From positions 1 through 64,000 of the forward strand of contig JAODBD010000011.1 in the NCBI GenBank assembly GCA_025463785.1: DNA of 64,000 nucleotides. The letters are read 5' to 3'. How positions within the stretch are numbered: position 1 is the first letter of the stretch; every line of letters begins with the position of its first letter. A program made the translations under genes and the position numbers. This DNA comes from Glaciihabitans sp. Its GTDB lineage: Bacteria > Actinomycetota > Actinomycetes > Actinomycetales > Microbacteriaceae. Under the pieces are notes generated by a model. That model was not told the origin of the DNA. It saw only the letters and a program-made list of their open reading frames with translations, and did not search any database. This document shows, piece after piece, positions 18,807-21,645 of this stretch.

Positions 18807-20834
18807 CTACTTCAGGCCGCGGCGTTCAAGCAACGGCTCGATCTCGGCATCCCGACCGCGGAAGTCACGGAAGGCCTCCAGCGGATCCTTGGAACCGCCG
18901 ACGCCAAGCAGGCGGGCACGGAATCGATCGCCGTTAGCGCGAGTCATGCCGCCGTTCTCCTTGAACCACTCGACGGTGTCAGCATCGAGAACCTCGCTCC
19001 AGATGTACGAGTAATAGCCCGCGTCGTAGCCGCCCGAGAAGGTGTGCGCGAAGTAGGTGCTCGAATACCGCGGCGGCACGGCGGGGTTATCGAGACCGAA
19101 GCTCGCGAGCGCGTCGGCCTCGAACTTCTCGACGTTCGTCACCGTGTCGTCTGCCGTGATGCGGTGCCAGGCCTGGTCGAGCATCGCGGCCCCCAGGTAT
19201 TCGCTCGTTGCGAATCCCTCATTGAAGGATGCGGACGCCTGCAGCTTGTCGACAAACTCCTGCGGCATGGGCTCGCCCGTTTCGTGGTGCACGGCGTAGT
19301 TCGCGAGAACCTGGGGCCACAGCATCCACATTTCATTCACCTGGCTTGGGAACTCGACGAAGTCGCGAAATACGTTTGTGCCGGCGAATTTCGGGTACGT
19401 AACGTGAGCGAACAGGCCATGCAGGGCGTGGCCGAACTCGTGGAACAGCGTGTTCACCTCGTCGTAGGTCAGGAGCGTCGGCGAGCCGCCCGCGGGCTTC
19501 GGAACGTTGTGATTATTGACGACAACTGTCGGGTGGTCGAGCAGGGTGTTTTGGGAGATGAGCGGGTTCATCCACGCGCCGCCGCGTTTCGAGTCGCGGG
19601 TGTACAGGTCGTAGAGGAACAGGCCAACGGGCGATCCATCCGCGTTGAACACCTCGAAGACGCGGACGTCCGGGTGGTAGGCGACGAGGTCGTGGCGCTC
19701 ACTAAACGTGATGCCATAGACCTGGGTTGCCGCGTAAAAGACGCCATCCCGCAGCACCCGTTCGGCCTCGAAATATGGGCGCATTTCGGAGGTGTCGACG
19801 TCGTACCTGGCCTTGCGCACCCTCTCGGTGTATAGCGCCCAGTCCCAGCTCTGCAGGTCAAAGTCACCGCCGACCTGCTCCTGCAGATCCTTCTGCTCCG
19901 CCTTTGCGTTGCGGGCCGCGGGGGATGCGAGCCGCCGCAGCATCGCGTCGACGGCCTCGGGGGTCTTGGCCGTTTCATCCGCTGTCACGACGGCAGCGTG
20001 GTTTGGGAACCCGAGCAGTCGCGCGCGCTGCGCCCGCAGCCGAGTGATCTCGAGCACCAGCTCGCGGTTGTCATTGTTGCCGCCACGAATGCCGCGGGCT
20101 CGGGATGCCGCCATGATCCGCTCGCGCACACTCCTGTCGGTGAGCGACGACAGATACGGATGCCCGGTCGGAAGTACCAGAGTAATGAGGTACTTGCCGT
20201 CGAGGCCACGCTCTTTCGCGGCTTCGGCGGCGGCAGAGATCTCGCTCTCGCCCAGGCCCGCGAGGTCTGCCACGTCGTCGATGACAATCGCGAGGTCATT
20301 GGTGTCGGCAAGCAGATTCTTCTCGAACCTGGTCTGCAGCGTCGAAAGGATTTGGTTGATGTCGCTCAATTCGCGTTTGGAGGTGTCATCGAGGCCAGCA
20401 CCGGCGACCGTGAATTCGTCGTAGTAGCGCTCGATCAGGTACACCGACTCGGCATCGAGACCGAGGGTGTCGCGCGCGGCGTGCAGTGTCTTGATGCGTT
20501 CGTAAAGGCGCGGGTTCAGACGGATTGCGTCGGAGTGCGCCGCGAGGAGGGGAGCGATGTCCTCCTCGAGCTGGTTGGTGAAGTCGTTGCTGTCTGAAGA
20601 AGACTTATTGAAGAACACGTTGGCGACTCGCTCAAGCGTCTGGCCGCCGCGCTCCAACGGAATCATGGTGTTCTCGAACGTCGGCGTCTCCGGGTTGGCT
20701 GCGACGGCTGCGATCTCGGCGAGGTGTTCCTCGAGGCCTCGGTCGAAAGCGGGCCGGTAGTCGGCATCCGATATTTCTGCGAATGGCGGAAGCCCGTAGG
20801 GGAGAGTGCTCGGAGCGAAGAACGGATTTGTCAT
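18807..20834 (-). CDS. M3 family metallopeptidase (peptidyl-dipeptidase Dcp-like)
   Basis: A 675-residue cytoplasmic zinc peptidase of the oligopeptidase A/Dcp family. The zinc site HEFGHALHG is near residue 464, with the helical N-terminal lid typical of M3 enzymes. Dcp-like enzymes remove dipeptides from the C termini of short peptides, including products of Clp and other proteases. The promoter appears leaderless: TAGGCT is six bases before the ATG, and a TTGCAT -35 box lies 18 bp further upstream. This -35 box is the first element of the 14-bp-period operator array, so expression is probably tied to the divergent ArsR-like regulator. Confidence 0.93.
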   Translation of the reverse strand: MTNPFFAPSTLPYGLPPFAEISDADYRPAFDRGLEEHLAEIAAVAANPETPTFENTMIPLERGGQTLERVANVFFNKSSSDSNDFTNQLEEDIAPLLAAHSDAIRLNPRLYERIKTLHAARDTLGLDAESVYLIERYYDEFTVAGAGLDDTSKRELSDINQILSTLQTRFEKNLLADTNDLAIVIDDVADLAGLGESEISAAAEAAKERGLDGKYLITLVLPTGHPYLSSLTDRSVRERIMAASRARGIRGGNNDNRELVLEITRLRAQRARLLGFPNHAAVVTADETAKTPEAVDAMLRRLASPAARNAKAEQKDLQEQVGGDFDLQSWDWALYTERVRKARYDVDTSEMRPYFEAERVLRDGVFYAATQVYGITFSERHDLVAYHPDVRVFEVFNADGSPVGLFLYDLYTRDSKRGGAWMNPLISQNTLLDHPTVVVNNHNVPKPAGGSPTLLTYDEVNTLFHEFGHALHGLFAHVTYPKFAGTNVFRDFVEFPSQVNEMWMLWPQVLANYAVHHETGEPMPQEFVDKLQASASFNEGFATSEYLGAAMLDQAWHRITADDTVTNVEKFEADALASFGLDNPAVPPRYSSTYFAHTFSGGYDAGYYSYIWSEVLDADTVEWFKENGGMTRANGDRFRARLLGVGGSKDPLEAFRDFRGRDAEIEPLLERRGLK

Positions 20835-20864
20835 GGTTTGAGCCTACGGTGAGCGGCTGGCGGG

Positions 20865-20954
20865 ATGCAAAGGTCTGTTTGCAAAGAGAGCATTGCAAAC
20901 AGAGCATTGCAAACGCACGGTTGCAAAGAAAGCTTTGCAATGATATCTTTGCAT
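20865..20954. promoter_or_regulatory. seven TTGCAA-type hexamers at exact 14-bp period between divergent leaderless promoters
   Basis: ATGCAA (20865), TTGCAA (20879, 20893, 20907, 20921, 20935) and TTGCAT (20949) are spaced exactly 14 bp. Element 1 read leftwards is the -35 of the M3 peptidase promoter. Element 5 is the -35 of the rightward promoter (TTGCAA-N17-TATCTT), whose -10 ends six bases before the regulator's ATG at 20956. Elements 5 and 6 make the perfect palindrome TTGCAAAG/CTTTGCAA. Confidence 0.8.
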
Positions 20955-20955
20955 C

Positions 20956-21645
20956 ATGAGCGAGAACGAGAGTCAGGTCGACCAGGCAGCGACGTCTGCT
21001 CCGGTCGGGGCCGACATGCCAGACGACAGCGATAGCGAGATCGATTTTCATGATCGCGAACTCGACCTGATCAGCCTCAAGGCGCTGGCGCATCCCCTTC
21101 GGGTCAAGATTGTCGACACCCTCTCGACCTACGGATGTTTCACCGCGAGTGGCCTGGCCGAACGTCTCGGCGAATCCAGCGGCGCCACCAGCTATCACCT
21201 TCGCCAGCTCGAGAAGCACGGCTTCGTTCGCGAGGTCGAAGGCAAAGGCACCGGGCGCGAGCGCTGGTGGGAGCGGGTTCCGGGCGGCATCAACATCGGT
21301 TCGAAGGAGGCCAGGGAGACACCGGCCGGCCGGTCGGCGGCGAACCTGGTCTGGCGGGAGTTCAAAGTGACCCAGGACCAGCTGCTCGCCGATTACGTTG
21401 AGCAGTCGGACGAGCTTGTTCCCGAGTGGGTCGACATCGCATCCGTCAGCGTTATGAATACTCGCTTGACGAAGGACCAGCTCAAGGCTTTCGTTCGCGA
21501 ATTCATGAAGCTCACCGACAAATACCTCGTGCCGTACAAGAACTCGACGATTCCTGGGTCACGCCCGGTGCACATCGATTTCAACGCGTTTCCCGTCGTG
21601 GACGGTGACGTCGCGCGCGACTCGTCGAAGGAAGAAAGAGCATGA
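20956..21645 (+). CDS. ArsR-like winged-helix transcriptional regulator
   Basis: A 229-residue regulator with an acidic N-terminal tail (about 30 residues) and a winged helix of the ArsR type at about residues 35-110: LKALAHPLRVKIVDTLS, then the recognition helix region GESSGATSYHLRQLEKHGFV, then the wing KGTGRERWWERVP. The C-terminal half has no metal-binding Cys pattern, so metal sensing is not suggested. It probably binds the TTGCAA array directly upstream and controls itself and the divergent M3 peptidase. No Shine-Dalgarno is present and the -10 position fits a leaderless mRNA. Its stop overlaps an in-frame ATG of the following short gene's longer reading. Confidence 0.88.
   Translation: MSENESQVDQAATSAPVGADMPDDSDSEIDFHDRELDLISLKALAHPLRVKIVDTLSTYGCFTASGLAERLGESSGATSYHLRQLEKHGFVREVEGKGTGRERWWERVPGGINIGSKEARETPAGRSAANLVWREFKVTQDQLLADYVEQSDELVPEWVDIASVSVMNTRLTKDQLKAFVREFMKLTDKYLVPYKNSTIPGSRPVHIDFNAFPVVDGDVARDSSKEERA

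Follow-up and report, generated by a model that had tools for sequence, protein, structure and literature searches.

A 14-bp array of TTGCAA-type hexamers as a candidate autorepression operator of an actinobacterial ArsR-like regulator

What is the role of seven TTGCAA-type hexamers that stand in a row between the divergent genes for an M3 peptidase and an ArsR-like regulator? The hexamers occupy positions 20865-20954 of the window, as we call the whole 64,000-nt stretch of DNA that was analysed, and direct reading, a repeat search and TRF (period 14) agree on a start-to-start distance of 14 bp throughout. An earlier note on this DNA had described seven hexamers at an exact 14-bp period, and every unit was found where that note had placed it (repeat-search spacing 14,14,14,14,14; TRF period 14). 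Taken as a whole, the array is best explained as an operator through which the adjacent ArsR-like (HTH_20) regulator represses its own gene cooperatively, a reading that comparison with related loci makes likely. The features of the locus are collected in Table 1.

Table 1 Coordinates of the array, its promoters and the neighbouring genes in the window
Feature	Position	Strand	Remarks
Divergent M3 peptidase (Dcp/oligopeptidase A-like)	18807..20834	-	Pfam Peptidase_M3, E 1.1e-120; perhaps a bystander or a secondary target
-10-like TAGGCT of the leftward M3 gene	20841..20846	-	TAGNNT 6-7 nt before the M3 start in 15/17 M3 loci (counted by eye)
Unit 1 (slot -6)	20865..20870	.	ATGCAA, oriented -> (ATGCAAAG)
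Unit 2 (slot -5)	20879..20884	.	TTGCAA exact, oriented -> (TTGCAAAG)
Unit 3 (slot -4)	20893..20898	.	TTGCAA exact
Unit 4 (slot -3)	20907..20912	.	TTGCAA exact; slot -3 in 57/61 loci
Unit 5 (slot -2)	20921..20926	+	TTGCAA exact; putative regulator -35 and left half of the inverted repeat; hexamer with at most 1 mismatch in 61/61 array loci
Perfect inverted repeat TTGCAAAG-AAAG-CTTTGCAA between -35 and -10	20921..20940	.	0 mismatches; putative core dimer operator; complete in 30/60 loci scored
Unit 6 (slot -1)	20935..20940	.	TTGCAA exact, oriented <- (CTTTGCAA)
-10 element TATCTT of the regulator promoter	20944..20949	+	Overlaps unit 7; TANNNT at that lattice position in 60/61 loci, but in no more than 2 at any of the 38 offsets 3-40 nt upstream
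Unit 7 (slot 0)	20949..20954	.	TTGCAT, oriented <- (CTTTGCAT); slot 0 in 31/61 loci
ArsR-like regulator, HTH_20 winged helix and C-terminal helical domain, 229 aa	20956..21645	+	Pfam HTH_20, E 1.1e-12; putative leaderless start
Small coupled ORF, 126 aa	21642..22022	+	Overlaps the regulator stop; counterparts in several relatives; probable second gene of the autoregulated unit

The array is far beyond chance. The longest 14-bp chain of hexamers (at most 1 mismatch each) in the window has 7 units, against longest chains of 1 (32 times), 2 (26) or 3 (2) in 60 simulated 64-kb sequences, and at other steps, from 10 to 18 bp, the longest chain in the window has only 1-2 units. The array is also polar: its upstream units are direct repeats (TTGCAAAGAA) and its last two units are flipped, which creates a TTGCAAAG-N4-CTTTGCAA inverted repeat between the -35 and -10 of the regulator promoter. 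Searching for this pattern with at most 3 mismatches returned 6 matches in the 64-kb window, all of them inside the array (shuffle mean 0.02). In the 3.3-Mb genome of the organism itself, the operator-like pattern was present at the array alone when 0-2 mismatches were allowed; 3 mismatches added one match inside the array and four outside it, the latter no more than the reversed-pattern control would give (6 per strand against 10). The search at 0-2 mismatches thus found no wider regulon outside the array, as expected for a local autoregulator.

Conservation of the array was surveyed from the side of the regulator. A protein search of 60 genomes, including its own, gave matches in 35 others, and one locus each was taken from 29 of these. 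In this protein-only survey, at least three units at exactly 14 bp were present within 330 nt upstream of 21 of the 22 nearest regulators (L003-L024), and at the remaining one (L017) a chain of 3 units stands ~360 nt ahead of the inferred start. No 3-unit chain was found at the seven remotest regulators (L025-L031; 0/7), two of which, L029 and L030, have 2 units. Arrays within the genus number 7 (the window), 7, 6, 6 and 5 units, and the sixth genome of the genus gave no regulator match in the protein search. At L017, the large distance points either to a misassigned regulator start or to another small gene between regulator and array.

A protein search of 61 Streptomycetaceae genomes yielded 30 loci; in 10 of them three or more units form an exact-14 chain, some of these chains being weak, and one of the 10, L207, contains no exact TTGCAA. 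Other Streptomycetaceae loci showed variant half-site letters or other steps. A step of 13 throughout was found there in L193 and L200, steps of 13 and 14 are mixed in L197 (13-14-13) and L206 (13-14), and L191, L198 and L199 follow 14-12-14 or similar. Among the relatives met in the second array scan described below, L058 also steps by 13 throughout and L064 mixes 13 and 14. The earlier note had proposed a comparison of array length and period in orthologous loci. Besides the presence of the array at 21/22 nearest regulators, this comparison gives lengths of 3-7 units and shows that other steps exist, since L058, for example, keeps 13 throughout, with 14 bp still the commonest.

The survey was also made from the side of the array. 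A named genome collection was scanned for three exact TTGCAA at 14 bp, giving at least 116 stretches, 80 titled and 36 untitled. Among the titled matches listed, classed by record title, a homologue of the regulator was found at the array in 28 of 29 actinobacterial records and in 0 of 51 non-actinobacterial ones, and among the untitled records listed in 17 of 36. The actinobacterial array record without the regulator is L092, and in L089, one of the 28, the homologue forms the C-terminal half of an MFS fusion. Inspection of 18 of the 51, together with 3 untitled records, showed what look like simple or sporadic repeats; the actinobacterial L092 and L069 were inspected as well. A second scan, of 394 genomes belonging to the class, allowed gaps of 3-15 and found the triple in 28 genomes. 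Triples with 8+8 gaps occur in 11 of the 394 genomes and lie at the regulator in 11/11, one of them within an MFS-HTH_20 fusion, while gaps of 6-8 were found in 3 genomes, also at the regulator (L058, L064, L066). For the 14 genomes with other gaps, the regulator was present in 0 of the loci fetched. Perfect or near-perfect 14-bp tandem repeats containing TTGCAA were seen in L121, L123, L156 and L184, which are non-actinobacterial or untitled, and no relative of the regulator was seen in these loci.

The earlier note had named the ArsR-like neighbour as the likely binder, a proposal supported by the linkage between array and regulator (28/29 actinobacterial vs 0/51 others; 21/22 nearest); the neighbouring regulator very probably binds the array. 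Judged from the sequences, the array belongs to the adjacent HTH_20 regulator and not to the M3 peptidase.

Array architecture was compared across 86 loci with enough upstream sequence. Two, L021 and L089, were dropped (no usable start or frame too long), leaving 84 regulators, of which 71 were kept below 85% identity and 61 of these have an array. Array scans supplied many of the loci, so arrays are over-represented in this 61-locus set, and since inclusion required an exact 14-bp chain, the set cannot alone show 14 as the only step. As start codon we chose, reading on from the last unit, the first ATG in frame or, failing that, GTG, a choice that leaves the phase free, and slot 0 was defined as the lattice position whose end lies 1-2 nt ahead of this codon. 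Slots -3, -2, -1 and 0 are occupied in 57, 61, 60 and 31 of the 61 loci, and slots -4, -5 and -6 in 32, 12 and 6, the window having all seven; array length varies from 3 to 7 units, mainly at the upstream end. Modulo 14, the start codon falls at phase 1 in 36 loci and at phase 2 in 25 (61/61), and TANNNT stands 6 or 7 nt before it in 60/61. Related actinobacteria keep the array layout rigidly locked to the regulator start.

Polarity is kept across the same loci, the upstream slots reading TTGCAAAGAA one way and the last two slots reading the other way. A right-hand AAAG was found at slot -3 in 46/57 loci and at slot -4 in 22/32, and a left-hand CTTT at slot -2 in 1/57 and at slot -3 in 0/32. 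The complete AAAG-N4-CTTT dyad spans slots (-2,-1) in 30/60 loci and (-1,0) in 9/31, and is found at (-3,-2) in 1/57, (-4,-3) in 0/32, (-5,-4) in 1/12 and (-6,-5) in 0/6.

The regulator promoter in the window reads TTGCAA(20921)-N17-TATCTT(20944)-N6-ATG(20956). Slot -2 is assigned as the -35 because its spacing to the -10 is 17 bp. The proposal that the fifth hexamer serves as the regulator -35, with the last hexamer overlapping the -10, is in keeping with an arrangement conserved in 60-61 of the 61 array loci. The start codon stands 6-7 nt after the -10, and these distances imply a leaderless transcript; the gene, which the same note had called leaderless, looks so. A strict sigma-70 scan (threshold 9 of 12) reported no promoter, and the regulator promoter matches 8 of 12 by count.

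The period is also seen in paralogues with other half-site letters. By z values that derive from base shuffles and not from a phylogenetic model, lag 14 gives the strongest self-similarity across 33 non-redundant upstream regions of paralogues (z 15.0; next 4.3), and in the 23 of these regions without any TTGCAA the peak is still at lag 14 (z 8.8; next 3.3), which is the best lag in 13 of the 23. Half-sites of the forms TGCAGAG, CACAAG, CGCAAAG, CGAAAG and TTCCAA are visible in the paralogues, and the recognition-helix stretch differs between paralogue groups, for example SSGATSYHLRQL, NTGTVSWHLRQL and APGSVSYHLGTL. We relied on the lag test because a search by spacer length for a universal 8-4-8 dyad gave no clean result, with all even spacers in excess (k=4 in 20/55 against 3.1 in shuffles, k=2 in 20, k=6 in 18, k=0 in 17), and some of the regions begin at a misplaced start codon. 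The paralogues that pair other half-site letters with other recognition-helix residues (L205-L216, L218-L226, L249, L254, L257, L258) offer material for a specificity code.

The regulator scores 48.2 bits against Pfam HTH_20, above the gathering cut-off of 27, and HTH_20 is matched by 34/34 aligned relatives at E 0.001; weaker Pfam matches are to ArsR (HTH_5) and MarR. Its scores against the NCBIfam models for metalloregulators (NF033788, 42.6 bits vs a cut-off of 55) and SdpR (NF033789, 23.6 bits vs 100) lie below the cut-offs, and no conserved metal-binding cysteine was found among the invariant or nearly invariant columns of the 34 aligned relatives. On both grounds, the regulator is unlikely to be a metal-thiolate sensor. 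An AlphaFold monomer model (pLDDT 88.8) predicts a winged helix and a C-terminal helical part. The best structural match to this model, top in both lists, is Kfla_6221 from Kribbella flavida (PDB 4g6q; Foldseek E 1.4e-05; Z 12.9, rmsd 4.6 over 168 residues), the sole structure of the 50 listed with more than 100 residues aligned; the identity is 17%, the Z value is just 1.0 above that of the next structure, and Z below 13 is common for helical arrangements according to the tool. The title of the 4g6q entry gives the function as unknown, and a search of the open-access literature for the name Kfla_6221 returned nothing. Among plasmid records, tblastn turned up 53 that contain a relative; of the 15 listed, those with an annotation name it a helix-turn-helix or hypothetical protein.

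These features suggest a mechanism of autorepression. A regulator dimer would sit on TTGCAAAG-N4-CTTTGCAA, with its left half on the promoter -35 and its right half in the spacer. With the last unit overlapping the -10, the bound protein would block RNA polymerase from the leaderless promoter, and the upstream same-direction units on the 14-bp lattice would load extra regulator cooperatively, giving sharper or stronger repression. A ligand, probably a small molecule, would release the regulator. At 10.5 bp per turn, 14 bp is by arithmetic 480 degrees, which sets each unit 120 degrees around the helix from the next and brings the same face round again after three units (42 bp). Since two 20-bp dyads side by side would have a hexamer in common, the protein would either fill alternate pairs or place single subunits, head to tail, on the upstream direct repeats. 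From the orientation of the half-sites, the promoter-proximal inverted pair suits a dimer, and simple side-by-side dimers do not explain the upstream direct repeats.

The array could alternatively be a shared operator of both divergent genes: its first unit would be the M3 -35, and control of the M3 peptidase the main task of the regulator. On the minus strand the window does read TTGCAT(20870-20865)-N18-TAGGCT(20846-20841)-N6-ATG(20834), a geometry that fits, and a divergent M3 gene lies within 300 bp at 17/61 array loci, where the arrays are longer (mean 5.0 vs 4.0 units; Mann-Whitney p 0.002, with relatedness not controlled). At the other 44/61 loci, however, no divergent M3 gene was detected within 300 bp, and over the 17 M3 loci the distance from the array to the M3 start spans 22-108 nt, in no fixed relation to the lattice. 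The earlier note had read the first hexamer as the M3 -35; given this variation, such a use is not conserved, and the N18 fit, which holds in the window, is a local coincidence. Control of the peptidase as the main function is thus doubtful, and array occupancy could still affect M3 in the window lineage, where the upstream units may also reach the divergent M3 promoter. A different possibility, along the lines of the wrapped or spiral filament that the earlier note had suggested, concerns how the protein is arranged: one subunit or dimer per 14-bp unit might nucleate at the inverted promoter pair and spread head-to-tail upstream over the divergent M3 promoter, as a filament or wrap. The upstream units of the 61-locus set are direct repeats of one polarity, and array length is variable (3-7), mostly at the upstream end, both of which agree with such spreading. 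Nor is it far-fetched, because a review describes filament formation by TubR, a winged-helix autorepressor that acts on direct repeats (PMC5016525). The conserved core, however, comprises only slots -3 to -1, occupancy falling to 32, 12 and 6 of 61 at slots -4, -5 and -6, and some Streptomycetaceae relatives step by 12 or 13, which a strict lattice would not obviously allow; we consider a filament unlikely. Distinctly unlikely, too, is the wider proposal of a large actinobacterial family of HTH_20 repressors on a near-fixed 14-bp lattice, in which half-site letters change with the recognition helix while step, promoter phase and polarity flip stay, and a dimer seeded on the promoter extends into an upstream head-to-tail helical filament whose length, set by the number of units, would act as a tunable autorepression dial.

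Bound units might also assist RNA polymerase rather than block it, making the regulator an activator or dual regulator. This could fit the same conservation: the upstream direct repeats are where activator sites would sit, and the promoter hexamers are weak, with no match in the strict sigma-70 scan. However, conservation is highest for the unit that is itself the -35 and for the unit in the spacer, and the -10 keeps a fixed place on the lattice. Protein bound there would probably collide with sigma, which makes activation very unlikely compared with the autorepression favoured here. A tandem repeat or transcription terminator without regulatory role has next to no probability. Although a stem-loop was called at 20920-20941, it lies upstream of the putative transcript, which rules out the terminator or hairpin reading, and a neutral repeat is refuted by the polarity and promoter phase conserved, as are the half-sites, across many genera; the non-actinobacterial matches inspected look simple or sporadic and have no such regulator.

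Winged-helix autorepressors of the ArsR/SmtB type bind a dyad operator over their own promoter and are autoregulated beside an export gene. The locus resembles them in the winged helix, in the dyad at 20921-20940 that spans the regulator's own putative -35 and spacer, and in the export gene adjoining in relatives. Unlike them, the window regulator has a C-terminal helical domain, no invariant cysteine and a metalloregulator score below the cut-off, and its predicted operator is a multi-unit 14-bp lattice with upstream direct repeats. This unusual, rigid multi-unit lattice on a probable ArsR-like autoregulatory operator is what appears to be new. Among the open-access papers listed, none was seen to describe the operator or the regulator family, which is a weak absence as sequence strings often stand in figures.

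Another point of comparison is TubR on the tubC iterons of type III plasmid partition, a winged-helix autorepressor that forms a filament on a direct-repeat array upstream of its own operon (PMC5016525). The window regulator is likewise a winged-helix protein beside an array of repeats upstream of its own gene. In contrast to tubC, the HTH_20 array is locked to the promoter and inverts there, and the neighbours seen beside the HTH_20 regulator are peptidase, exporter or small protein genes. TubR was not among the 50 structures listed in either structure search, which is no test of kinship.

For an uncharacterised and widespread family of actinobacterial regulators, the comparison provides a candidate operator code consisting of half-site, spacing, polarity and promoter phase. 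Sites could be predicted for the relatives found in Streptomyces, Microbacterium, Arthrobacter and elsewhere, a number of which lie beside MFS exporters. The natural series of 3-7 units, together with paralogues that change the letters and keep the step, would lend themselves to testing in what way additional half-sites tune a repressor, and the same series could show whether a winged-helix repressor can polymerise on a promoter.

The genes behind the regulator bear on its possible ligand. A Pfam-confirmed MFS exporter follows the regulator in L009, L012, L023, L119 and L161, overlapping the regulator stop in the last four, which points to small-molecule export as a recurring theme around the regulator; because several relatives sit with an MFS exporter, the ligand is probably a small molecule. 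In the window lineage, the small ORF takes the place of the exporter, and its 126-aa product matched no family in Pfam or NCBIfam. Similar small ORFs, which share a W-(S/A)-x-R-R-like stretch, come after the regulator in several of 21 loci inspected. In Nocardiopsis xinjiangensis (L186, 1927-3930 (-); L089), the array precedes one 668-aa ORF with MFS_3 at the N-terminus and HTH_20 at the C-terminus.
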